Below, piece by piece: positions 6,093 through 37,046 of a stretch of DNA of 64,000 bases. The notes beneath the pieces are model-generated. The model made no database searches, was not told the origin of the DNA, and worked only from the letters and a program-made list of their open reading frames with translations. The position numbers were made by a program, and so were the translations under genes. Source of the DNA: Nitzschia sp. pyKryTriq1 (lineage: Eukaryota > Bacillariophyta > Bacillariophyceae > Bacillariales > Bacillariaceae); the NCBI GenBank assembly GCA_956465555.1, contig OY101123.1:1860001-1924000 (forward strand). Direction: 5' to 3'. The number at the start of each line of letters is the position of its first letter. Position 1 is the first letter of the stretch.

Positions 6093-8024
6093 ATGCGATC
6101 ATCGGTCGCTACCAGTTGTTTATCCGAAACATCGAGAACACGGCTCCTCTTTCTTCTGGTGTCGGTGGGCGGAGTGATATTGCTTCTTGCACAGAATTCT
6201 GACGGTTTCTTTATGCAGTCGTCGTCGTCATCGTCGTCGTCTCCTCGGCAACGGAAGGTTTCCGGGCGTTCGATGGCTGCCAAAAAGTTCTCGTCAAGAA
6301 CCACCTCCTTGTATTTGAATGGAGATGGCGACGAGAATGCAAATGAAGGTGATGATTCCCCTTTGTTCTTCCTCAAGCCTGAGCAAACGCAGCAGCAGCA
6401 GCAGGACGGCCTGCTAGCAGCAGTCTCGCCGGTCGATCAACCACAGCAACAAGTAATAGTAGTGCCACCCATTCCCAGTTATGCAGTGCAGTACGATGCG
6501 ACATATATCTTTTTTGCATCCGCTGTGGTCGGAATTCTTTCAGGATTTTCGATTGCCGTTTTTAAAATATCCATTGAAAGTTTAAGAGAAGTGATGTATG
6601 GATCATCGTTTGGGGAACATTTTCCAGTCGCACTCATTCCAGCCCTTGGTGGTATCGGTGTCTCTTTACTTGCCATGTTTGGAGAATTTTCTCCTGGATT
6701 ACGAGGTACTGCCCAAGAAATCGATGCCGTGTCCTTGAATACTGCGACCGATGAGCGATTTACCAAGGCGTCCCGATTTCTTCGAAAGCCTCTTGCCGCT
6801 GTGGTCACGCTGGGGACTGGAAACTCGCTGGGTCCGGAGGGGCCCAGTGTGGAGATTGGAATGGCTGTCAGTCGAATTTGCATGCCGTCCTCCGTAGTGA
6901 GAAATGAAACGGATGCCGAAACTGTGGCTCGGATCCAACGCAATCGCTTGTTGCTGTCGGCCGGTGCGGCTGCCGGTGTATCGGCAGGATTCAATGCTCC
7001 ATTGGCGGGAGTCTTTTTCTCGTTGGAAATTCTGCAACAATCCTTGCCCCCATTAAAGCCATTGACACCATTGTCCTCGACTTCGACAGGAGGAGGAGGG
7101 GGAGGAAGCGAAGATATGGAAGGCAACACAGACGAAAATAGTAGATGGTTCCAGCAGGTCAAAGATGATTATCTCTCGACGGGAACTGGATCGATCACGG
7201 CCGTTCTTCTTGCTTCCGTTCTTTCCGCTTTGGTATCACAAGTCTATCTCGGTGACTCTCTGGCACTGAGTGTGCCATCCTACGAATTGAACACTCCATT
7301 GGTGGAGCTACCCATGTATCTGCTACTAGGAGCGACCACCGGAGTGGTAGCTGGGATTTTTACATTTGCGGCCCAGCTCTCCAAAGCATTTTTTGATGGT
7401 ACCGCGGGGCCCGATGTCGTTCGAGGAGCCATGACGCTGCTTCCCAAATGGACCAAACCTATTATTGGTGGTTTGATTTGTGGTTTCGTTGGACTGATAT
7501 ATCCTCAAATTCTCTTTTTTGGATACGAAACACTCAACACGCTACTGGGTAGTAATTCCTTGACAACGGACGTAGTATTGACCTTGCTCGCGGTCAAGAT
7601 CTTCACGACAGCCATTGCTGCCGGAAGTGGATTGGTGGGAGGTACCTTTGCTCCATCATTGTTCTTGGGAGGAATGGTAGGAGCTTCCTTCCATGACATT
7701 ATTGCTAAAATGTTTCTAGTGGCCCAGGATAGTCCCTTTGAATTGGCCGATGTGCAAGCCTACGCCATTGTAGGAGCCGCTGGAGTCTTGGCGGCACTCT
7801 TCAAAGCCCCTTTGACGGCCAGTTTATTATTGTTCGAGTTGACTCGAGATTATGAAGTCTTATTGCCAGCATTGGCCAGTGCGGGAGTTGGAAGTGTCAT
7901 TGGAGACATCGTCGAAAGGGCACTGGAAGAAACGCGGCGCGACCGGGATGCCGTATCGTGGGGAGATCTCAGCGACTTTGACGATGAAGCCGAAGAATCA
8001 TCCTCATCGAACAAACGATCCTAG
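6093..8024 (+). CDS. CLC-family chloride channel or Cl-/H+ exchanger, plastid-type
   Basis: 643 residues from the first ATG at 6093. An N-terminal hydrophobic segment (about 15-34) followed by NSDG-FFMQ and a Ser-rich stretch resembles a diatom signal-plus-transit presequence with Phe at the cleavage site, so plastid envelope or thylakoid placement is possible but not certain. The membrane domain carries LGPEGPSVEIG with the gating glutamate (E249), FNAPLAGVFFSLE, and GGTFAPSLFLGG (about 516-527), all CLC ion-pathway landmarks. The first canonical motif GSGIPE is replaced by RGTAQE, as happens in divergent plant CLC-e-like proteins. There are no CBS domains; the chain ends in a short acidic Ser-rich tail. 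It moves chloride or another anion across a membrane. Retention of the gating glutamate fits either a gated channel or an exchanger. An insert of about 45 residues, rich in Gly and Ser, sits mid-domain. Confidence 0.88.
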   Translation: MRSSVATSCLSETSRTRLLFLLVSVGGVILLLAQNSDGFFMQSSSSSSSSPRQRKVSGRSMAAKKFSSRTTSLYLNGDGDENANEGDDSPLFFLKPEQTQQQQQDGLLAAVSPVDQPQQQVIVVPPIPSYAVQYDATYIFFASAVVGILSGFSIAVFKISIESLREVMYGSSFGEHFPVALIPALGGIGVSLLAMFGEFSPGLRGTAQEIDAVSLNTATDERFTKASRFLRKPLAAVVTLGTGNSLGPEGPSVEIGMAVSRICMPSSVVRNETDAETVARIQRNRLLLSAGAAAGVSAGFNAPLAGVFFSLEILQQSLPPLKPLTPLSSTSTGGGGGGSEDMEGNTDENSRWFQQVKDDYLSTGTGSITAVLLASVLSALVSQVYLGDSLALSVPSYELNTPLVELPMYLLLGATTGVVAGIFTFAAQLSKAFFDGTAGPDVVRGAMTLLPKWTKPIIGGLICGFVGLIYPQILFFGYETLNTLLGSNSLTTDVVLTLLAVKIFTTAIAAGSGLVGGTFAPSLFLGGMVGASFHDIIAKMFLVAQDSPFELADVQAYAIVGAAGVLAALFKAPLTASLLLFELTRDYEVLLPALASAGVGSVIGDIVERALEETRRDRDAVSWGDLSDFDDEAEESSSSNKRS

Positions 8025-17704: not shown

Positions 17705-18825
17705 ATGACCCTTTTCTCCTCTCTCGCCTTCCTCCTCTTCTTGAGCTCCACGGCGACCTTGGTATCGTCCAATCCCATTGTCAGCACCATTGCCGAGTTC
17801 ATATCTGGACCATTGGAGGATTCAAGATTGGCGTATCTCAAGAACCTCGCAGGTCTGGCTGATCCTGTATTTCTTGACAATCTTGGCAACGCGACAAAGG
17901 ACTTCACTGTATTCGCACCCTTGAACCCGTTGTTTGACGCGGTTGCATCGATGAATGGCTACCAAGCGAATCGGACCGCTTTCTACCACGTGATCGAGGG
18001 ACAGGAAATTCTGCGCTCCAAGTTTGTGACGCAAAGTTATTGCCCCATGCTCTACGGTGTGGCTTTGGATTTTGTCGTCGTTTCCATCTTCAGTCCGCCT
18101 AAGATCAGTATTAGTTTCGGTGGTGGGCGCACGGCCAAGTTGTCAAACGACTGGCTCCAAGCTTCAAATGGACGTATCTACTTCGTTGATAAGGTGTTGG
18201 AACCTATTGAAAGTCCATGCTGGACGACCGGAGAATTTTTGTCACAGTGCTGCAACCGAACTGCCACTCCTGTTCAAATTATGCAACCCCCAACCACGCC
18301 CCCAACCAGCAAACCTACCAGCCAACCTACCAACAAACCTACGAGCCAACCTACCAGCACATTCCCTACCAAATCTCCGACCAGTTCTATTGGGCTTAGC
18401 GCCTTGGTCTCTACCGATACTGACCCTCCTACCGACCAACCTACCAAGGAACCCACCGACCAACCTACCAGGGAACCCACCGACCAACCTACTACCAAGG
18501 AACCCACCGACCAACCTACTGAGGAACCCACCAAACCCCCGAAGGAAAAGAAGATCAAGAGGAGGAAGCTTTAAAAAGATGAAGAGGAAACTCTGACGAA
18601 GTTGCCGGTATATTTTGTAAAAGATAGTACCTTTCTCTGAAATCGTTGTCGTAGACTATGTACTTGTAGAGGACTACCAGCAGTATTCGTAGCTGTGTCA
18701 ATCGCTCCATGCATGCATCCGAACGTATACTCGAGTTCGCATGGTTCTATTCTCGAATATCGGTACAAGTACTGTACTCGTACGAGTAGACCTACCGGTA
18801 CCAGTACATACGTTGTTCAGAATTA
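17250..18825 (+). repeat. Segmental duplication, copy A (Fasciclin gene with both flanks)
   Basis: Aligns by eye with 59590-61072: the upstream block (AAATAATTTGAATTTT, ATCATCGGCGAAG, GGTCGTCCACGCCGGGCG), the whole Fasciclin coding region, and the 3' flank (GATAGTAC.TTTCTC.GAAATC; CTCGAGTTCGCATGG; ACGTTGTTCAGAAT). Copy A ends six bases from the stop codon of the lipoxygenase fusion gene on the other strand. Copies have diverged by substitutions and small indels. Confidence 0.8.
17705..18574 (+). CDS. Secreted Fasciclin (FAS1) domain protein with PT-repeat tail, copy 1
   Basis: 289 residues. Residues 1-22 are a signal peptide (LAFLLFLSSTATLVSS). Residues about 25-170 form one FAS1 domain: FTVFAPLNPLFDAV (67-80) is the H1 box, YHVIEG contains the central YH, and NGRIYFVDKVLEPI (155-168) is the H2 box. 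A Cys cluster follows (CWTTGEFLSQCC), then about 90 residues of PTxxPT units (PTSKPTSQPTNKPT type, later DQPTKEPT), and a basic end KIKRRKL. FAS1 domains mediate cell adhesion and matrix contacts, so this is probably an extracellular or wall-associated adhesion protein. N-glycosylation sites are visible (NAT, NRT). The paralogue at 60095-60901 has the same parts but a shorter tail. Confidence 0.88.
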   Translation: MTLFSSLAFLLFLSSTATLVSSNPIVSTIAEFISGPLEDSRLAYLKNLAGLADPVFLDNLGNATKDFTVFAPLNPLFDAVASMNGYQANRTAFYHVIEGQEILRSKFVTQSYCPMLYGVALDFVVVSIFSPPKISISFGGGRTAKLSNDWLQASNGRIYFVDKVLEPIESPCWTTGEFLSQCCNRTATPVQIMQPPTTPPTSKPTSQPTNKPTSQPTSTFPTKSPTSSIGLSALVSTDTDPPTDQPTKEPTDQPTREPTDQPTTKEPTDQPTEEPTKPPKEKKIKRRKL

Positions 18826-18830
18826 GTAGA

Positions 18831-21800
18831 CTACACAGAGACACTACTTTCCATGAGTACTGGATTGAAGGCTTGCATTGGAAAGCGTCGTCGTCCTCCT
18901 CCTGGTGGTGGCGTGTGAGAAGAAGAAGGAAGACCGGCGTCACCACTGTTCTTGCAGTTGTTTTCGTTGCGTTTGTCAATGGCATCCGACAAGACGCGAA
19001 GTTTTTCTTGAAAGCGTTCCATAGCCACCACGGCATCATCGGCAAATCGATTGCTACGGACCAGCAAGTGATCCCAATTTCCCATGAGACGAGGCATTCT
19101 CAAACCAGTAGAAGAACTAAAAGCAACAAGAGGAGGAGCAGGAAAGAAACAATGGTGAGATGTCCTCGATGATGATGATGATGATGCTGGTCGAGTGTTT
19201 CTTGTTGCCACCAATAGCAATACAGAATGTAGTTTTAGATGTACTAGATGTACTTACACCAAGGTGCAGTTGAGTTGATAGATTTGAATCGAATCAATCT
19301 CCTTGTTGCGACGAATGGTAGTACCACAAATCTTGGGATTCGCAAAGTAGTCAGAAATTTGACCCACTAGTTCGTGCATTCCCGTCACATTGCAAATGAG
19401 AGAGCTCAATACATTCCTGTTTTTGTATGCATGCATGCATGCATGTATAGTTGTGAGAAATGAGGCGTTCCAACAAGGAAGCATAGTAAAGACAAGAACT
19501 CTGGTAGAACTTACACCACATCGTCAAACTCCAAGAGATCTTGGCTTTGAACCAGATCCAATTCACTCGCCAGTCCTTCCAAGAACGCCTGTAGATCCCG
19601 GTCGTTATTCATGTTCCTTTGCAATCGACGCTTTTCGATGTCGCTATTATTAGAACCACCGCCGGCGGTTGACGAGCCATAAATGACACACAAAAAGTCA
19701 TGCACCAATTCCGTCACTGCATCGGCAAAGGCCACCAAGTCTTGATTCGCTGGATAATCAGCCACATCCCTCATGCTCTCGGGAATGTAATCCTTGAAGT
19801 TCTTCTTGAAATTGTTCTTGGTAGCGTACAAAAGTTCTTGGAGATCATCTTCCTCAAACGCCCAGTTGCGGTTGATGACACCCTTACGCATAGTCAAAGT
19901 ACGATACGCCTTATTGTTGATACCGATGGTGCGGTAGGTGAAGATCTTGAGAAAGGCTCGAAGAGGGTGGTTGATGGGGAGATGAGTTCTCGATGCCGAG
20001 ACCAAAGAGTTGGCGGCTACCATGTGGACGTTGACCAAATGGTCAGAGACAGTCACCAAGGCCAAGGCGCTCACTCGCCAGGCCCACATGGCATGGCGCC
20101 ATTTGTCGTACTCGTCCTTTTCAAAGTTTTCATCAGGTTTCTCTCCCTTCATGACCGCGACAAGCTTGAAAGGGCACTTGTGGTACTCTCCATCACAACA
20201 TGTGTAGACGCCAATGAGATTGTACTCGGCATCAAAGTAGGCCGCTGCACCGTATCGTTGGTATCCCCGACGGACGCGGTACGTGCCGAGATCGCACGTA
20301 TCGTTGACATAAACCGTACGGATACGGTCTTGACACTTTTGATACGCCAGACTGTCCTTGGGAAGACTTTCGAGTTTTTGAGTATGGAGACAGCACAGAC
20401 CCGAAAAGGCCAACTGCGAAACCAACTCTGCCACATCCTGGACACTACTATAGTTGGTATTGGGCGGTGGAAAGTTGGAGCTGAACCATTGCATCCTCCA
20501 CGCGACAGCTTCCTCGACGTTTTGCCACTCTCCTTCGTCATCTGTAATGGGAGCCATGGAGAGCACCTTGGAAGTCAAGTCATCCTTCATCATGTCAAAA
20601 ACTGGAACATCCTCGTCTAATAACATACAGAAGAGTAGAAATGCGTGCATGGTGAGCAAATCGCATCACTGGCAGAAGGAGGGAAGTCTTGCTGCCATCG
20701 AACATGGTATTTTCTTTGAGCATCGTGCATAAATTATACGTACCATAGACTGGGATGTTGCGATCTCCTGCCGCAGCAATCATCAGCGAACCAATCTTTC
20801 GCCCATTGGTATCCAATGGATGTTTGACTTCCGATGCATGAGGGAAGTACTTGTTGTTACTGGCGTAAGTTATTTGACCCATCTTCAGGACGAATCTCAT
20901 GAACCAGGTTTCCTTTCGTTGGATCTCGTCAATGCGTGCGGGGGGCACTGACGCAATGTCCTCGTTCGGGGTGGGGCAATAACGGTCTACCAAAAATTCA
21001 ATAATATCCATAGCATTCCCATATCCGGGGCATCTTCGTGGTGGAGTGTCAAAGTCGCCTTTATCGCCGGCACGGACAATGTCGTTGTGGTTTCCATTGA
21101 ACGTCATCATTTTTCCAAGAACGGTTGGATCTCGGTCGAAATTCAGGACTTCCGCATCGGGTCCAAAGACGCTCACTGTATCAACCAAAAAGGGGAATGA
21201 GTCATACATCGACCTTTTGTCCTGTCAGCTACTACATTCTGATTGACTTACCGTCTCGGTTTGCATTCTGTATGGAGCAATGAAGCGAGGTACCATCAGG
21301 AACTGAAATGCGCTTGTTGAAGATAGTAACATGGCTACGACCATCTGCCAGTTTGAAGTTGTAGGCCATAAAATTGACCAACGGGACGCATCGTTCCAAT
21401 CGCGCCATTTCCAGGATAAACTTTTTTGGATCCGCCTTGTATATGGGGACCAACTTGGGATCTTCGTAGAGCTTCTCCACAATATCGCCTAGCAAAAAGG
21501 CAGGTGCAGCCCCTCCTGCAATGACAAACTTGTAGACCAGGAAACGAACCACCTCGGGTGGGGACCATGCATCCCAGTTGTTTTCCTCTGCCATTGCTAG
21601 CGTTCTTTGTAGAGACGGAGCGTCCAAGTATCGAAGGAATGCCCGACGAATAAGGTCTGAAAGCAACATCATCAACAACAAAACAATATTTGAGAACTCG
21701 GTCGTTCATCATTCAATCGTCGATTCATTCAATCCAATCAAACAAACCAATCGGTTGTTTGATTCTTGCTTACCATAATCTTGAATGCCTTGAAACTCCA

Positions 21801-23784
21801 AAATACCACCAAACCAGATTTTGTTGATCCAGTCGGACATGAACGGAAAGGCATTGGTCAGAAGGTTGTAGTATCGCTTGCGTTCATGCTCAGTGAATTC
21901 TCCGTCCGTCAACAAATGAAAGAGCGTCGATCCGAACGAAATCTCGATGAGTTTCTTGTCTACCATCGTCCCATCCGCATTGGCAAAGGGCAAGATGGCA
22001 TCCAATCGCTTTCGGACGAGCGGTTTCGTTTCCAGTTTGTCATTCACTTCTGCGAGCCAGCAACGCACCAACTGTCGGCCTTCAGTGATGATGGACTTTT
22101 CAATTTCCGTTCGAGGTAATGTAGTGAGATTGTTCTGGGACCAGTCGAATTGAGCCGTACTGATCGACCACGCCAAAGAAAGACCCGACTTTCGCTGGTC
22201 GGGATTCTCAATAATGGCCTTGACGTCCTTGTAGGTGCCGAATCCTAAACCTTGACCCATGGGAAAGACGGGGCCAAATTCTTCCATCAAAAATGCCACG
22301 TACGGAGAAAAATCATTCTTGAAGGGTAGAGTGAATTCGTACATGACAAATGCTTCCAGAAACTTGCGAAGCCACCAACCGATTGTGAGATTGAAGAGAA
22401 AGTTGGATTGATTCTTGAAGCATTGGAGTCGGAGATGAGACGACACAATCAATACCGCCTTGGGTGGAAATAGCTTGCCATCCACAGTCTCAAAGGGAGT
22501 GTACAAGGCACCTTGGATTTCCTTACCCCATAGCAGCTTCCAGGATCGTCGAAGACAAAAGAAGACGGCCGAGAAGGGATAGCACACAAAGGTAACATAG
22601 GCGAGGTACGCCACCAGCATGAACGCGAATCGCACCACCCCCAAAGCGACAAAAAAGACCAAAAATGGAATATTCAAGGGCGATGGGATGGATTGGATCC
22701 AACCGTTGACAGCCCCGGCACCTCTTGGAATCGGATCGAGTAGATATTCGAGTTCTCGCTTGTAGCCATTTCGGTTGGTGGCAAGTCTCCTCGGTACATC
22801 ATGGACCAAAGGACTGTTAAAGAGCGTCGCTCTCAAAATCAGATATATGGGAATTATGGAGAGTCCTTGAAGTGTCCCAAGCACGACCACACACATCAGC
22901 AACCGGTACGGCATGCGCCGAGAGCTGACACGAGAATAAAAGTCTTTCATCATGGCAAAGCCCAAGGCCAGATCGAGGGCAAAGATATGAGTAAAAGTCA
23001 TGACGACCATTTCGGGTTGGCTAAAGATCTTCTCTCCGATCAAGGTCGTATTGAAGGTTTTGTAGATTTCGGGATCGAGCAATTTCGTAGCTTGTGCGTG
23101 GATGCTAATGACAAAATAGACCAGCGAGTAGATCAAGGTAGGCATCAACAAGATGGGATTTCCTTGTTTCGCTTCACTTGAAAAGAGCAAATCAGCGACA
23201 AAGGCAAGTAAGGTAGCCATGGCGAACCAGACCTCGCTCTCGAGGGGATAATCCCAATTGACCTTGTCGGAATTCCACCAATCGGCCGGCTTGCGAAAAA
23301 TCCAGGCAAAGTCGACGTCCTTCAAAACATTCTGGAAGAACTGCTGCTTGTTTTTCACGAGATCATTCTCCTTGAGGTAATAATAAAGCGAAGTGCTAGT
23401 ATTCTTGATGATATCTTCCATTTCGTGAAGTGGTGCTCCCAGAATCTTGAACATTCCGAGACCCACAAAGTACAGGATACCGAAGAGTGCCATGGTCTGC
23501 AAGAGCTGCGTGATAAAGCTGGGCGGATTGGCATAGTAGCGGCGTGCTGGTTGATCATCATCGGATGCTGCTGCTGCTGCTGCTGCTGCTGCCTTCGGTC
23601 CCGAGGCCCCCCTTCGCGAGGACCCGTCCGGATGATGGTAAGGGCACGAATCGGCCGCAGCCGAGTGGTGGTCGGTAGATTCATACGATGTTACCGTCAA
23701 CAAATCGTCGTCACGGTGGTGGTCCGCCCTGCGATGTTGCTGGATTCCTCCTCCATGATGCGGACTGCTTGGGATGCAACCCAT
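18831..23784 (-). CDS. Membrane domain + cytochrome P450 + lipoxygenase fusion
   Basis: Six exons: 23784-21774, 21656-21252, 21175-20744, 20616-19515, 19416-19258, 19116-18831. Every junction is GT..AG and keeps frame, giving 1464 residues. Residues about 90-410 hold five to seven membrane helices; FTHIFALDLALGFAMMKDFY and flanks resemble the ABA4/DUF4281 fold (tentative). Residues about 440-905 are P450-like: helix K ExxR is EMAR (753-756), the haem loop is PPRRCPGYG with thiolate C854, and the helix I centre AGGAAPA (717-723) lacks the usual acid-Thr pair. Residues about 920-1464 are a lipoxygenase catalytic domain: iron ligands H1142 and H1147 (HxxxxH), HPLRAFLKIF after them, third ligand H1331 in TGMHELVG, and a C-terminal SSVSV whose last carboxylate is the expected fifth ligand. 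No PLAT domain. Predicted role: membrane-bound oxylipin synthase; product unknown. Confidence 0.87.
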
Positions 23785-24386
23785 TATGTCGATGATGAGT
23801 AGGAAGAGCCTACTGTACTATCAACGGCAAAGATAACATCAACTCGACAGATGAGGGTGTCTCGATATCTTCAAAGTGAGAAACAAGAGATGATGATTCT
23901 TCCTTGGAGGTCGATGAATTATTATTCCCTCTCTGTGCACGGTTTCGAGCCTGGAGACGAGAAAGATACCGACGGTTGCGGTGTCCGCCAGCCGAGTTTT
24001 GGTAATTATGGGTCGGACGATTCTCATTATGCAAATCTTCAAGTATGTATGTTGGAATGGAATCTCAACGGAAGCGTTTTTGAAACTAGTGTACAAGTAC
24101 ATCGTCACAACCTCTCATTTTTCTTCTCCGCGCGCCCAGAATACAAGTACCGGTAAGCATTCGCTTCGCACACAGGAAAGCGCGCATGCCGCGGTACACA
24201 ACAGATCCTTATTGCACAAGATTCCGCGATCTTCCTCCGCGCAGCATGAATACAGTATAATAGAGTGATTCGTTCTTATTGCCATGTTTGGCCACCGAAG
24301 TACTGTATTCAGCTGACACTCCCGGTAGCAGCAGCAGCAGCAGCAGCAGCAGCATACTAAATATTTCATGAGGATACCACGGGGAT
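23785..24386. other. Divergent promoter region with CAG repeat
   Basis: Separates the P450-lipoxygenase gene (-) from the NSUN2-like gene (+), so it likely carries both promoters. It contains TACCGGTA near 24149 and about ten GCA/CAG triplets at 24327-24353. No gene is supported within it. Confidence 0.5.
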
Positions 24387-27300
24387 ATGATCTCTAGTAA
24401 TAGAAGCGTTATTGTCACCAATAAGAAGCTTATTGCTGCTGGTGGATTATTGTTTTGTGGCGGCGGGTGGTGTTTCCTCCGTTCTCTGCTTTGGCTTCAT
24501 ATTATCGCCTTCCACGGCGCGGTCGCCATGTCGTCCACATCACGCAGGATCCAATGTACTCTTTGTCAACAAGAAGATCATCATCTATGCTTTGAGTCAC
24601 GGAATCTTCTCTTTGATCACTTGCGACACGAACATGGATATGAACGACAAAGCGGCCGCCAACATCAGGACGACGACGACAATGAAGGTTTGACCAGCCG
24701 AGATCGAACAGCAGCCTCCATTGCGGCTCGATCCACGTACAAGAATCCACATCATGACGCCTATTATCGACTTCAGTGTCAACAAAAACAGGCGGGAATT
24801 ATGACTTTGGAGGAGTGGGAACTAACACAAGAATATTTTCGAAAACCCTTGACCATGGCTTTTCGAATATCCTCCTCCTCGACTATTAGTAGTGATCATG
24901 CTGCTGGTGGTGGTGGTGGTGGTGGTGGTGGCCCTCGCCGAGAGTATTGGAAATGGTTGGAGAAAGAGGCGGGAGATTATTTAGTGCAAAGTCCCTATAT
25001 TTCCTCCTGTCGCATGGCACGGATACCTCTTCGAGAATGGTCAACGACCGCACAACAAGCCTTGAGCGATGCCCAAGAACTGGGAGTTATCAATCGACAG
25101 GAGTTATGCAGTATGATTCCACCCCTTCTTCTCTTATCGAATTGGAACATCAGCAATAAGCAGGCAGCACCAGGACAGAAGACGAGGAATCCCAGGACTG
25201 TTTTGGATCTTTGCGCAGCACCAGGCTCCAAAACGCTTCAGTTGTTGGATTTAGTGGCTAGCAAAAGCGAGGAAGACGACGGCGGCAATGGCTCCAGCAG
25301 CAAGAAGAAGCGACCACCCTTTCAGGGAATGGTGATTGCCAACGATGCCAATCGATCTCGCTTGTTGACAGTCGCCCGACGAGCCCGCATTCTAGGTCAA
25401 GCATCTAATGGTAGTAGTTCCTCCAAGACCAGCTTGGTTCTCAATTCCAGCGATGGACGTCACTTTCCAGCCTTGAGAAAATGGGCGGGATACAAACTCA
25501 AATTCGATCATGTCCTGGCAGATGTTCCTTGTTCGGGAGATGGGACTTTGCGGAAATCGTCCAGCAAGGAATGGAAGCAATGGAATGTCAAACAACATTT
25601 GACGTTACACAAATTGCAAGTTGGATTGCTGCTACGGAGCTTGGAATTGGTCAAAAAGGGAGGGCGTGTGGTATATTCGACATGTTCTTTGGACCCAATT
25701 GAGAATGAAGCCGTCGTTGCCAGTGCCATTCTCAAAATGGGTGGGCCCGGTGTCTATCGGATAATCAAGCCTCCTGAATACTTACAAATAACAGAAGGAT
25801 CTTCTTTGTGTTCTTCTTCTTCTTTGGAACCTTTTGTCTATACATCTGGAGCATCCTCCTGGGTGGTTCCTCATCCCCAATTTGATGCCTACGAAAACCC
25901 TACGGTCTACAATCACTACGAGCAAGTTCCCAAGAAACTTGCCAAAAGAGATATTCTTCCATCCATGTTTCCTCCCAGCAACCAGCAGCATGAGAACAAT
26001 ATTATGATGAAGGATATGCTATCGAACTGTTGCCGAATCTTACCGCAACATTTGGACTCGGGCGGTTTCTTTTGTGCCATTATCGAACGCGTCCCACCCG
26101 AATATTTTGCCGTGTGTTGTCCCAGTCAACGAGAGAGTAATAATACGTGTTCCGCTACCGAAGACGACTACGACGCCAGCCACCACCACCATGGTCGTAT
26201 CTATCATCTTGTAGCCAACGATGATGATGATGATGATCACGCTAGAATGCCGAATACCACCAGCATTAGCCAAACCAAGCAAATGCGAATCATGCTACGA
26301 GCGGATACTGCAGGAAACAAGACCAACGAGGAGGATAGTATGGATTACTATTTTGAAGGACTTCCTACTCTGGAGGCGGCCCAACAATGGTTACGACAGC
26401 ATTCCGCTTTTGTTCCCGGGAAAAGCGAGTCTGCCGTGGACTTTCCTTCAATCTCACTACCACTTCTGTCCCAGCCTCCCAAACAATGGTATTCCAAGGA
26501 GAAGTTCGACAAAAAGTCGGACGATAACACCCGCACGAACCAAGAAAGACCCATGACTACTTCTCCGCTTTATACTCCTCTCGTTTCGCCACCTCATCCC
26601 GACTTGGTGACAGAATTTGTCGATTTCTTTGGATTGTCCACAACGGCACAAGAGGCACAGCTGAAAGCCGTCCATCGGTTTCCTGTCGAACAACTGGTTG
26701 CGATAGGAGGAGGCGAGCAAGCCTCACAAGTGACGACGAATCGAATGGGAATGACTACTGATGAGAGCAGCAGCAACAACAACACCAACAACAACACCAA
26801 CGACATTTCCAAGACCGACAACCACGACACTCCGCGGAAGAGATCAAAGTATCTTCAACTGACGCTAGTCTCTGAGGAAATACGAAGCTTGTTTACGGGT
26901 GGGGCTAGATTCAATCCGATGGAATTAGGCTTGGCCCTCTGTCGAGTACCAGTAGGGAGCATTAATACAGCCCCATCGATGGGCCAAGACGAAAATGATT
27001 CGATGTTGAGTCGCACTGAGAAAAGTGGTCGATATGGTTTGTTGGATGAAGCGGCCGAGTTTTTGGGACCGTGTGCGACCAAACGGCTCCTTCCTTTGTC
27101 GTTGGATGACGGAGTCGAATTGCTGAGAAGTGGGAGGCTGGACTGTATCGGCAGTCGATTCCAGGAAATCTTTTCCAAAATGCCAGCTCCTGGTGCCATT
27201 ATTGCCGTTTGCCCCATCTCCAAAACCGAGAAGACCGAGCATGGTGATGCCTCTCATACTCCTGCTGTGATCTATTTATCGTGCGTCCTGCAAGAGGCTG

Positions 27301-27392
27301 GCGCCGACTCGATTCGGTTGCTGACAGAAAGACGAAGCGCCGATGCTTGGCTTGGGTTGCTATCCAAATCTCAGTCCAAGACCTTGGATTGA
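24387..27392 (+). CDS. Trm4/NSUN2-like RNA 5-methylcytosine methyltransferase with N-terminal zinc finger
   Basis: 1001 residues from the first ATG; M48 (24528) is an alternative start that removes a hydrophobic leader. A single C2H2-like finger (CTLC at 57-60, then HLRHEH at 78-83) precedes the enzyme. The methyltransferase core shows VLDLCAAPGSKT (272-283) for SAM, DVPCSGDGTLRK with C382, and STCSLDPIENEAVV with catalytic C433. The PCSGDGT(L/M)RK form and the following KQW..LHKLQ segment match the Trm4/NSUN2 branch, which methylates cytosine-5 of tRNA. The C-terminal third (about 690-1000) is divergent, with poly-Asn/Ser linkers and a region resembling the NSUN2 C-terminal domain (ELGLALCRVP). 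Likely nuclear. The zinc finger is not part of human NSUN2 as I know it. Converges with the oxygenase gene 77 bp away. Confidence 0.88.
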   Translation: MISSNRSVIVTNKKLIAAGGLLFCGGGWCFLRSLLWLHIIAFHGAVAMSSTSRRIQCTLCQQEDHHLCFESRNLLFDHLRHEHGYERQSGRQHQDDDDNEGLTSRDRTAASIAARSTYKNPHHDAYYRLQCQQKQAGIMTLEEWELTQEYFRKPLTMAFRISSSSTISSDHAAGGGGGGGGGPRREYWKWLEKEAGDYLVQSPYISSCRMARIPLREWSTTAQQALSDAQELGVINRQELCSMIPPLLLLSNWNISNKQAAPGQKTRNPRTVLDLCAAPGSKTLQLLDLVASKSEEDDGGNGSSSKKKRPPFQGMVIANDANRSRLLTVARRARILGQASNGSSSSKTSLVLNSSDGRHFPALRKWAGYKLKFDHVLADVPCSGDGTLRKSSSKEWKQWNVKQHLTLHKLQVGLLLRSLELVKKGGRVVYSTCSLDPIENEAVVASAILKMGGPGVYRIIKPPEYLQITEGSSLCSSSSLEPFVYTSGASSWVVPHPQFDAYENPTVYNHYEQVPKKLAKRDILPSMFPPSNQQHENNIMMKDMLSNCCRILPQHLDSGGFFCAIIERVPPEYFAVCCPSQRESNNTCSATEDDYDASHHHHGRIYHLVANDDDDDDHARMPNTTSISQTKQMRIMLRADTAGNKTNEEDSMDYYFEGLPTLEAAQQWLRQHSAFVPGKSESAVDFPSISLPLLSQPPKQWYSKEKFDKKSDDNTRTNQERPMTTSPLYTPLVSPPHPDLVTEFVDFFGLSTTAQEAQLKAVHRFPVEQLVAIGGGEQASQVTTNRMGMTTDESSSNNNTNNNTNDISKTDNHDTPRKRSKYLQLTLVSEEIRSLFTGGARFNPMELGLALCRVPVGSINTAPSMGQDENDSMLSRTEKSGRYGLLDEAAEFLGPCATKRLLPLSLDDGVELLRSGRLDCIGSRFQEIFSKMPAPGAIIAVCPISKTEKTEHGDASHTPAVIYLSCVLQEAGADSIRLLTERRSADAWLGLLSKSQSKTLD

Positions 27393-29825: not shown

Positions 29826-30707
29826 CTATGACTGGTCGACGCCACTCTCATTAGGAGTAGGAGTTTCAGTGGAGAAGATTGCCATGGTTTTTCGAAACAG
29901 ATGTTTCATAGACTCTTCAATGACAGAAAGTAAAGCATTCTCCATACTTTTGGAGATGATAGATTTTAGCGTCTCACCCTCCCAACCAAACTCGGCGACG
30001 CGAACTTCTGAATTGTTGTACAGAGTCTGATCCCATTTTTCCAGATCAAAATTGACTTCGAGTTCACCGTCGTTCACCTTTGATTTCAAGACCTGTCTCA
30101 GTTCCCGCAACCATCCTTTGTGCGTCACCACCGCGACAGACTCTTCCGTAACTTTGGCGAATACACCTTCCAGAAATTCTTTGACTCTGGCTCGAACCGC
30201 AGCGTTATCCTCTCCCTTTGGAACTTCCGGTCTCTCGGTTCCAATTCTTTTCAGATCGGAAAAGTCCACATGTGGAAATTGCTGTTCCAACTCTGCCACG
30301 GAAAGTCGCTCGTCGGCCGAAAACCCAGTTCGCTTCTCTCGTAGTGCCTCCAGGGCGACAAATTTTGGTTTAATATTATTTTCGCTTTCTTCTTGTTCTT
30401 CTTCTTGTTCTTGTTGATGTGACGAAAATAGTTCTGTCGCTGTCATGAGAGCCCGCCGAAGAGGAGATACTAAAACCAGTTTGGGTGGAGCATATTTGGA
30501 GCCACCCATTTTGTTGAGCAGGCCCAAATCGGCGGATCGACGCTTCGCCTGTTGGATTCCTTCGGGCGACAAGCACGCATCTGTCAACGAGGCATCGTTC
30601 AATACAGACCGTCGCGCTCTTTCTTGCTCTTCCTTTAAACTCTTCTCCTCTGGCAATGGCTTCTTGGACGGCCTGCTTTTCCAATATATTATGTGCCGCC
30701 TCGGCGT
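29826..30707 (-). CDS. Histidine phosphatase (phosphoglycerate-mutase-like), 5' part lost in gap
   Basis: Read in one frame from the gap edge to a TAG at 29826. Visible family features are DACLSPEGIQQAKRRS, LVLVSPLRRALMTATELF (the SPLxRAxxTA signature), an alpha-helical central region with ERLSVAELEQQFPHVDF, and VAVVTHKGWLREL with the second catalytic His. The first catalytic RHG motif must lie inside the 200-base gap. Next to the gap a different frame reads AEAAHNILEKQAVQ, which looks like the AEHN segment that normally follows RHG; so there is either a base error near the gap edge or a short unresolved splice. The enzyme would dephosphorylate a small phosphate ester or act as a mutase; substrate unknown. 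Upstream exons probably lie at 30908 and beyond. Confidence 0.75.
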   Translation of the reverse strand, partial: TPRRHIIYWKSRPSKKPLPEEKSLKEEQERARRSVLNDASLTDACLSPEGIQQAKRRSADLGLLNKMGGSKYAPPKLVLVSPLRRALMTATELFSSHQQEQEEEQEESENNIKPKFVALEALREKRTGFSADERLSVAELEQQFPHVDFSDLKRIGTERPEVPKGEDNAAVRARVKEFLEGVFAKVTEESVAVVTHKGWLRELRQVLKSKVNDGELEVNFDLEKWDQTLYNNSEVRVAEFGWEGETLKSIISKSMENALLSVIEESMKHLFRKTMAIFSTETPTPNESGVDQS

Positions 30708-30907
30708 NNNNNNNNNNNNNNNNNNNNNNNNNNNNNNNNNNNNNNNNNNNNNNNNNNNNNNNNNNNNNNNNNNNNNNNNNNNNNNNNNNNNNNNNNNNNN
30801 NNNNNNNNNNNNNNNNNNNNNNNNNNNNNNNNNNNNNNNNNNNNNNNNNNNNNNNNNNNNNNNNNNNNNNNNNNNNNNNNNNNNNNNNNNNNNNNNNNNN
30901 NNNNNNN
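30708..30907. other. Assembly gap of 200 N
   Basis: Exactly 200 undetermined bases inside the histidine-phosphatase gene, immediately beside a minisatellite. The repeat next door is a likely cause of the assembly break, and the length may be nominal. Confidence 0.98.
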
Positions 30908-31049
30908 TGCTGCTGGACGGCAACTTGATTTCCGCGCGTGACCGTGTAAAAAAATTCTATAGGCTCATAACCTATTGAAATTCTTGCCGGCGACGCCCAT
31001 TTCAAGAAACCTTTCACGCGATAGCACGCGCGGAAATTTATTTTATGCC

Positions 31050-31550
31050 ATTATTTCACTCGATAGCGCTAGTAATAGACATTATTTCATACAATATCAC
31101 GCGATAGCGCTAGTAATAGTTTCATACAATATCACGCGATAGCGCTAGTAATAGACATTATTTCATACAATATCACGCGATAGCGCTAGTAATAGACATT
31201 ATTTCATACAATATCACGCAATAGCGCTAGTAATAGACATTATTCCATACAATATCACGCGATAGCGCTAGTAATGGACATTATTCCGTACAATATCACG
31301 CGATAGCGCTAGTAATAGACATTATTTCATACAATATCACACGATAGCGCTAGTAATGGACATTATTCCATACAATATCACGCGATAGCGCTAGTAATAG
31401 ACATTTGTTTCATACAATATCACACGATAGCGCTAGTAATGGACATTATTCCATACAATATCACGCGATAGCGCTAGTAATAGACAATTGTTTCATACAA
31501 TATCACGCGATAGCGCTAGTAATAGACATTATTTCTTACAATATCACACG
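31050..31550. repeat. 41-bp minisatellite, about 12 copies
   Basis: The unit reads about ATTATTTCATACAATATCAC followed by GCGATAGCGCTAGTAATAGAC. About twelve copies, with a shortened one near 31110-31150 and single-base variants (CGCGATAG, CACGATAG, CGCAATAG; AATAG or AATGG). It lies between a candidate first exon (31558-31763) and the gap, so it probably sits in an intron of the histidine-phosphatase gene. Confidence 0.93.
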
Positions 31551-35472: not shown

Positions 35473-37046
35473 CTATCGACCAAAAGATGTCCGTCCTGTA
35501 CTACCAGTACCACCGGCGCCACCCCTCGAAGATGGACGACTTCCCGTACTTCCCACCCCATGAGTATTGGCATCGGCAAAGGCCGTGGCCGCATTGATAC
35601 CCGCCCGTGCCTTGTTCCATAATTTTCCAAAGGATTGGACGGCCATTTCAGGATTTTGAGTCGCCGTTTGGACCGCCTTTACCGTCTTGCCTACTAGTTG
35701 ATCCCATTGCGTCGGCGCCGGTGGTTCCGGTAGTGGTTCTCCTCGATTCGTCGCAATCCGACACGCGCGTTTATATTCGATTCGTTGCTTGGACGATTGA
35801 TGCAACGAGCGTACCGACGAGGCCGCCAATTCACTCGCTACCATACTCCCCACCATACTTCCGGCAGTGGTCAAAATACCCGCTCCACCAGCACCGCCTC
35901 CAGCGGCAGCTCCTCCTCCTCTAGCAGCTCCACGCGTGTTGGGAATAATGATGAGTCGGGATCGGAGGAGTCGAACTCCACGACTGCACCGATCCGGGAC
36001 CAGACGATCGACGTGGTTGAAGTTTCACGTCGACCAATCTCATCCATTATAAACGAATGGTCGGCAGAGACCAAGCGATCGTATGCAGATGTAGTTAAAA
36101 CAGAGAAAGCGGCTCTTGCCACTTTCTCTGTCAAATGAGTTTGTGAAAGTGGTTTTGTTTTAGCTTTGTTTACCACTAGTATACAAAGGTAGCATCGCCC
36201 GACCCAGTTTGTTTTAAGAACACTGGATATAGTCGCACCGATACATAGTTCCTCAACATTTGACAGAGAAAGGATGACCAGACGATCGACGTGGTTGAAG
36301 TTTCACGTCGACCAATCTCATCCATTATAAACGAATGGTCGGCAGAGACCAAGCGATCGTATGCAGATGTAGTTAAAACAGAGAAAGCGGCTCTTGCCAC
36401 TTTCTCTGTCAAATGAGTTTGTGAAAGTGGTTTTGTTTTAGCTTTGTTTACCACTAGTATACAAAGGTAGCATCGCCCGACCCAGTTTGTTTTAAGAACA
36501 CTGGATATAGTCGCACCGATACATAGTTCCTCAACAACGCGTTCCATGACTCGTCGCTCCATGAGCCAAATGACTTCCTACTAAACTTCCGACCAAACTT
36601 CCAATCATGGCCGCGGCCCCTACCGCTGCCGCCAAATCGGCCTCGGACATGCCCGCCACGGTTTCATCAAAGAAATCGCGATAATTTTCATACGCTTGAG
36701 GATCAAACTCGTCAAACTCTGCTGCCTCACCAGTAGTAGTAGATGATGAAGGTGTTGGATAATAAGAAGAAGACGAGGAGGCACCACCACCACCACCACC
36801 ATATCTCAATAATTCTTGTTGTTGATCGTATTCTCTTCGAGTCGTTTCATCTTTTAATACCTCATAGGCTCGTCCGAGTTCGACAAATTTCGCTTGTGCG
36901 GCGGCCATATTGTGAGGATTTTTATCGGGATGATGTTGCAAGGACAATTTCAAATACGCCTTGCGAATTTCCGACGAGGTTGCCGAGGGTGAGACTCCCA
37001 AAATCTCATAATAAGACAATATTGTTTTTTTCGAGGGAGGCATCAT
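35473..37046 (-). CDS. J-domain (DnaJ) co-chaperone gene interrupted by an LTR-type insertion
   Basis: The 5' part starts at ATG 37046 and encodes a J domain: [20 protein letters not shown], then HHPDKN with the HPD triad at residues 39-41, and YDQQQELL closing helix IV. A Gly/Ser linker and [22 protein letters not shown] follow. The 3' part (to the stop at 35473) continues with Gly/Ala-rich residues, [19 protein letters not shown] and a Gly/Ser-rich end. A 600-bp element plus its duplicated target (35937-36541) lies between them inside coding sequence; the host frame is in register on both flanks. J proteins stimulate Hsp70. The copy in this assembly is probably inactive or shortened after the J domain, unless the other allele lacks the insert. 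Confidence 0.8.
35937..36536. mobile_element. Solo-LTR-like insertion, probably LTR retrotransposon (copia-type suspected)
   Basis: 600 bp that begins TGTTGGGAATAA and ends CCTCAACA, so it has TG..CA ends with a short inverted repeat (TGTTG/CAACA). It is flanked by a perfect 5-bp target duplication ACGCG at 35932-35936 and 36537-36541. Internally, a block of about 278 bp is duplicated in tandem (35998 and 36276 starts). No coding domain is present, so it looks like an LTR left alone. An intact target duplication and near-identical internal copies suggest a recent event. Family assignment is inference. Confidence 0.8.
35998..36536. repeat. Tandem internal duplication within the LTR-like element
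   Basis: Two near-identical copies of about 260 bp start at 35998 and 36276, each beginning GACCAGACGATCGACGTGG and ending CATAGTTCCTCAACA, joined by a short spacer. This is unusual for an LTR and enlarges it. Confidence 0.9.

Follow-up and report, generated by a model that had tools for sequence, protein, structure and literature searches.

Fused enzymes that join a peroxide maker to a peroxide converter are already known from corals and fungi. In the coral fusions of allene oxide synthase (AOS) or hydroperoxide lyase (HPL) with lipoxygenase (LOX), AOS-LOX and HPL-LOX, the C-terminal LOX makes a hydroperoxide that the other domain converts (PMC5617202). The fungal Ppo, dioxygenase (DOX)-AOS and DOX-epoxyalcohol synthase (EAS) proteins fuse a dioxygenase to a cytochrome P450 (PMC13049297). 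The CYP74 clan (AOS, HPL, divinyl ether synthase (DES), EAS and brown algal CYP5164) consists of LOX-pathway P450s that work without O2 and without a redox partner (PMC10813956). The epoxyalcohols and polyunsaturated aldehydes of diatoms are oxylipins that act on grazers; the conversions that follow LOX in these algae are largely unknown (PMC7401250), and CYP74-like enzymes were stated to have been lost in diatoms (PMC10864609, section 5). Here, a gene joining a polytopic membrane domain, a P450 and a LOX was analyzed in a 64,000-nucleotide stretch of Nitzschia sp. pyKryTriq1 (contig OY101123.1, positions 1,860,001 to 1,924,000; the window, to which all positions refer). Its product is probably a membrane-tethered bifunctional oxylipin synthase, in which the LOX would make a hydroperoxide and the P450 would convert it in place.

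The gene (18831..23784) runs on the minus strand from 23784 to 18831. Its six exons (23784-21774, 21656-21252, 21175-20744, 20616-19515, 19416-19258 and 19116-18831) are separated by five GT..AG introns, and splicing gave 1464 residues and a stop in one frame, as the preliminary description had proposed. For introns 4 and 5, one of the four alternative donor combinations tried left a single open frame. Exon 1 (21774..23784, residues 1-670) encodes the MGCIPS N-terminus, the membrane domain and the N-terminal half of the P450. A protein search with the window protein returned three matches. P0001 (1419 aa) and P0002 (1334 aa) of N. inconspicua both aligned over residues 1-1464, with 60% and 58% identity, and P0003 was a metagenome open reading frame (ORF) running into intron 3. 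Searches by parts gave 23 matches with the P450 part and 25 with the LOX part, the majority being single exons called as ORFs. Among the exon-1-type ORFs P0006-P0023 and P0027, 17 of 19 stopped at residue 670-674 (P0019 and P0027 stopped elsewhere), and all 21 LOX ORFs P0029-P0049, with P0029 being the window's own, ceased matching at 1317-1320. Because full-length homologs exist and intron positions recur among relatives, the fusion frame is not due to chance, and the claimed three-part fusion was supported. Seven contigs appeared to be common to the P450-type and LOX-type matches. Alignments A1 and A3 were built without P0002, a near-copy of P0001, and A2 without P0002 and P0003, the latter truncated at intron 3. 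The mixed alignment A4 was dropped as misaligned, because P450-only and LOX-only fragments share no overlap. No relative of the fusion protein was found in the viral contigs searched, and an NCBIfam scan of the window protein gave no match.

More distant relatives retained the joined domains. P0052, 32% identical to the window protein over residues 667-1463, carries both domains in one uninterrupted frame, and the start of this frame near the intron 1 position suggests a eukaryotic source. In P0030 and P0040, a single frame leads from the haem loop on into the LOX. P0050, from Asterionellopsis glacialis, begins within the P450-LOX linker and is the same LOX as the hypothetical LOX CAD8595700.1 (group 4b in PMC10968607). 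The residue numbers published for the latter fit P0050 at 20 of the 21 positions checked when shifted by 231, a shift that one of these positions served to set; therefore, the full record should have 231 further residues in front, approximately as many as the P450 part of P0052 comprises.

The P450 domain (residues about 441-885; 20937..22464, exons 1-3) contains helix I AGGAAPA (717-723; 21499..21519), the ExxR motif EMAR (753-756; 21400..21411) and the haem-ligand Cys854 in PRRCPG (21030..21032), at the residues first described for them. The haem-ligand Cys, within CxG and preceded at Cys-2 by an Arg, was found in the window protein (C854), P0001, P0002, P0003, P0024, P0025, P0026, P0030, P0040 and P0052, and gene model P0005 ends ahead of it. 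ExxR, NANRD and R-x-CPG were constant in every row covering them. Helix I took the form IAxGAAPA or a near form across relatives, and, in line with the earlier claim, the O2-activating acid-Thr pair was absent in all nine rows covering it (window, P0001, P0002, P0003, P0019, P0024, P0025, P0026 and P0052). P0052 scored 26.8 bits against PF00067 (cut-off 22.8), with PF00305 also above its cut-off in the same frame. With a profile built from seven rows over the C-terminal half, P0052 among them, 28 of the 29 PDB sequences matched at E<=10 were P450s; the remaining one was a capsid protein (E 0.013). The two best E-values were 1.3e-4 and 5.2e-4; P450nor variants made up 12 of the 28. Among these 28, 23 are named as P450s, three are P450nor entries named nitric oxide reductase, and two we take to be P450s. 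Hence, the P450 identity is settled by relatives, profiles and folds.

The LOX domain (residues about 886-1464; 18831..20934, exons 3-6) matched PF00305 in the window protein at E 0.0078 and 15.2 bits, below the 23.6-bit cut-off. P0050, P0051, P0052 and two Myxococcota relatives were above the cut-off, and 24 of 26 members matched at E<=0.1. For the structure model of the N. inconspicua LOX domain (predicted template modelling score, pTM, 0.75), the 50 listed fold-match rows held LOX structures only, coral 3dy5 among them, and the domain assignment thus stood. The iron ligands H1142 and H1147 (HxxxxH; 20024..20041), H1331 (HELVGQ; 19374..19376) and the carboxylate of the C-terminal Val1464 (18834..18836), which ends the SSVSV motif, were confirmed in the window. 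HxxxxH was present in 26 of 27 relatives (it falls outside gene model P0028), and all six relatives that extend as far as the third His have it. Gly1335 at His+4 was as previously noted. The position of the fourth ligand varies among diatom LOXs, and Gln at His+5 (Gln1336 here) was modelled as the ligand in the Asterionellopsis relative (PMC10968607). We judge water to be as likely a ligand, because the close Myxococcota LOXs described below, with Gly at +4, have T, V or A at +5. Searches of the 40.65 Mb, 20-contig assembly of this diatom with three queries (P0001, one LOX from Myxococcota and one of a different bacterial type), no PaLOX-type query having been run, each matched the fusion locus only, which suggests that the fusion is the sole LOX in the genome. 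A PF00305 profile search of the same genome gave no match, the fusion gene included, and therefore cannot show LOX absence.

The nearest free-standing LOX clade found was bacterial. A scan of prokaryote genomes revealed two Myxococcota metagenome-assembled genomes (MAGs; records labelled Deltaproteobacteria) with free-standing LOXs, at identities of 28% (query residues 13-549) and 31% (126-549). A LOX match at E<=1e-8 occurred in 29 of 377 sampled Myxococcota genomes. The close clade comprised 11 copies in nine genomes, with the partial copy G114:C10 not counted, and 17 regions were fetched, which with L007 and L008 make 20 of the 39 listed LOX places. A CYP74-like P450 ORF lay within 50 bp of the close LOX, or overlapped it, in six of 11 cases (L008, L038, L040, L042, L044 and L025); the distance was 1.3 kb in another and 5.4 kb in one more. 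These neighbour P450s have helix I FNATGG or near forms; at L040, L044, L025 and L039 the MAGs contain them in split or truncated form. Among the more distant LOX regions, a P450-type ORF stood beside the LOX in three of eight fetched (L046, L047 and L051). The ORF at L047, which has no Pfam match and was chosen for its motif and its resemblance to P0052 (E 0.006), lies 12 bases ahead of the LOX on the same strand, an order as in the diatom chain. The gene neighbourhood is inherited, and the Myxococcota pairs are therefore not independent.

In the LOX tree, six fused-family sequences, of which P0050 and P0051 are known as LOX only, grouped in a single clade with the Myxococcota clade as its sister (98/94). 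This tree had a midpoint root and uneven letter composition and therefore does not show the direction of transfer. Comparison of the bacterial and fusion P450s by hhalign gave a probability of 44%, which does not show a common subfamily, and BLASTP of the bacterial P450 gave nothing significant against P0052 and E 0.012 against P0001, in the region after ExxR. When five Myxococcota genomes were searched with PF00067, each yielded 0-2 places, and none of the five P450s adjacent to close-clade LOXs was among them; therefore, P450 rarity is not usable as a background. A 1712-aa frame with a C-terminal LOX (G225) was rejected as a bacterial fusion, as Pfam matched the LOX only and the rest read by eye as a chance GC-rich frame. 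Other arrangements were also seen in these regions. At L047:5536-11169, three LOX-like ORFs follow one another, and a P450-like ORF stands between them. In the L008 MAG, an alpha/beta hydrolase fused to the CYP74-like P450 (3892-6318, minus strand) is divergent to the LOX (6215-7909, plus strand), possibly a cluster of hydroperoxide, epoxide and hydrolysis steps. The LOX ORF at L007:7854-10993 (plus strand) overlaps a patatin-like phospholipase ORF, possibly a unit for fatty-acid release and oxygenation.

The N-terminal part may bear on the location of the enzyme. The MGCIPS start (23767..23784) is a candidate N-myristoylation/palmitoylation signal, and starts of this type agree with the N-acylation consensus. 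MGCIP was found at or near the start in 11 of 20 aligned rows and MGNTP in P0003; the other eight rows, ORFs or gene models, begin elsewhere and possibly do not include the true start. About 70 residues after MGCIPS vary among relatives, and the start together with this variable stretch would fit N-acylation. The polytopic membrane domain (residues about 98-408; 22561..23493) showed seven hydrophobic peaks, of which the last two overlap, and helices in the AlphaFold2 (AF2) model of P0001. Its ABA4-like stretch (residues 189-299; 22888..23220) matched PF14108 at E 4.6e-4 and 21 bits, below the 27-bit cut-off. All individually listed members also scored under the cut-off (best 25.6 of 27 bits); 16 of 26 members matched at E<=0.1, and precomputed database annotation names PF14108 for P0016 and P0027. 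The membrane part of P0003 has an extra stretch that resembles, in the alignment by eye, a duplication of the segment preceding the ABA4-like part.

The conserved frame, the P450 and LOX identities, the haem and iron ligands, the absent acid-Thr pair and the bacterial LOX/P450 neighbours are supported here, and a LOX fused to or beside a P450 without the O2-activating pair is best read as a peroxide maker with a peroxide converter. The in-place conversion proposed earlier thus gained support from the bacterial neighbours. For substrate transfer, chemistry, product and membrane orientation, we infer the following scheme. The C-terminal non-haem iron LOX would oxygenate a polyunsaturated fatty acid, presumably eicosapentaenoic acid (EPA) or a C16 acid, and the P450 domain would take the resulting hydroperoxide as its only oxidant. 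Cleavage of the O-O bond by the haem-thiolate would require neither O2 activation nor a reductase, and the radical would rearrange to an epoxyalcohol or be cleaved to an aldehyde and an oxo-acid. The acylation motif and the polytopic ABA4-like domain would hold the pair at the membrane where fatty acids are released. As for the product type, judging by the lists of diatom products and not by the sequence, we would perhaps place epoxyalcohol synthase ahead, lyase somewhat behind, and allene oxide or another product last; the first is preferred because diatoms make epoxyalcohols with the enzyme undemonstrated (PMC10864609). A bolder form of the scheme, which we consider doubtful, is a three-step membrane factory in which the ABA4-like domain is catalytic and isomerises the epoxide or allene oxide made by the P450 from the LOX hydroperoxide. 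A bacterial-type LOX/P450 pair would have been fused in an algal ancestor, and, as the only LOX of the diatom, it would be the source of its LOX oxylipins.

Several observations weigh against the bifunctional synthase. Pfam gave no P450 match in the window protein, in P0001-P0003 or in six of the seven members of alignment A10, and none of the 31 PF00067 matches in the genome (counted by exon pieces) lay on the fusion gene. With the P0003 piece alone as the query, P450s (E 0.065) matched about as well as ribosomal S19 (0.06), and the three-row profile A1 placed a capsid protein at the top (0.0059), with P450s at 0.86. The AF2 model of the membrane part and P450 (pTM 0.34) was too poor to use for the active site. 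In its Foldseek search, 48 of 50 rows were named P450 or CYP and the other two were PbdA, which we take to be a P450, but none reached E<=0.001 (best 0.06). The CYP74 helix I motif is FNAxGG; the fusion P450 has the IAGGAAPA type instead, so that its CYP74 likeness extends to the missing acid-Thr pair and not to this motif, and it may act like CYP74 without being shown to belong there. On the LOX side, no Asn, His or Ser side chain occurs at His+4. No P450 was seen in the fetched stretch for three of the 11 close LOXs (L007, L037 and the contig-end L043). A catalase-like haem protein was concluded to perform the diatom step (PMC10864609, section 5).

Other roles for the chain were weighed against the same evidence. 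The P450 could be a peroxygenase that uses the LOX hydroperoxide on another molecule, or a monooxygenase that depends on a reductase and acts on the LOX product by hydroxylation or epoxidation. The evidence for a haem-thiolate fold and the other P450s of the genome agree with such a role, which is nevertheless unlikely given the missing acid-Thr pair, the CYP74-type helix I of the bacterial neighbours and the Pfam scan of the window protein, which gave no reductase domain. Consensus P450 haem loops have Gly at Cys-4, where the fusion has Pro. This unusual loop and the absent Pfam match would suit an inactive scaffold, with the LOX alone making, or also isomerising, hydroperoxides, as proposed for LOX itself in diatoms (PMC10864609). 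Retention of the haem Cys, ExxR and helix I down to the 32%-identical relative, in the best-conserved domain of the chain, makes this quite improbable. Plant ABA4 is linked to neoxanthin formation, and the 16 members with an ABA4-like match, together with the annotation of P0016 and P0027, would allow a carotenoid or apocarotenoid substrate in place of a fatty acid. The scores under the cut-off and the Myxococcota LOX overlapping a phospholipase ORF, which points to fatty acids, leave this a slim chance. Finally, a third N. inconspicua copy appears in the annotation as a pair of consecutive gene models (P0005 and P0028), as if two separate genes had been wrongly joined here. Such an error is extremely improbable, as P0001 and P0002 each have a single-protein annotation, P0052, P0030 and P0040 cross between the domains in one frame, and the Asterionellopsis LOX begins 231 residues before P0050 (PMC10968607).

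Near the gene, a fasciclin-domain protein with a PT-rich tail (17705-18574, plus strand) contains a tandem repeat at 18431-18532, and an RsmB/F-type RNA methyltransferase (24384-27392, plus strand) adjoins the fusion gene. An ORF at 29826-30956 (minus strand) contains a run of X, which marks undetermined or withheld bases. Twelve copies of a 41-bp unit (90% matches) lie at 31056-31547 within a low-GC stretch, and a 278-bp unit at 35998-36536 (1.9 copies, 100% matches) reflects a recent duplication or an assembly effect.

A P450-LOX pairing with a membrane domain was not found reported in the open-licence papers searched. The claim that the P450-first, LOX-last order with a membrane anchor is undescribed holds to this extent; the LOX part alone appears in PMC10968607 as a hypothetical LOX group, where CAD8595700.1 is treated as a LOX and the word P450 is absent from the main text. 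An N. inconspicua protein annotated as LOX was dismissed in the same paper. The fusion may have been overlooked because Pfam misses the P450 and because gene models and exon-wise ORFs split the chain. The conserved P450-LOX fusion is a concrete candidate gene for diatom oxylipin conversion and would probably supply the enzyme step missing from this chemistry. The haem domain of the coral fusions is catalase-related, whereas that of the diatom chain matches P450 profiles, shows no catalase match in the Pfam scan and follows a membrane domain. In the fungal dioxygenase-CYP fusions, a haem dioxygenase serves as the oxygenase and precedes the P450, whereas the diatom chain has a non-haem iron LOX placed after it. 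Unlike the CYP74 clan, the diatom P450 has no FNAxGG helix I and is fused to a LOX, and its haem-loop insertion is presumably longer. The Myxococcota LOX and its CYP74-like neighbour are separate genes, in contrast to the diatom chain. Hence, the bifunctional synthase, if borne out, would represent a third kind of peroxide-maker/converter fusion beside those of corals and fungi, possibly with a bacterial gene pair as its ancestor.

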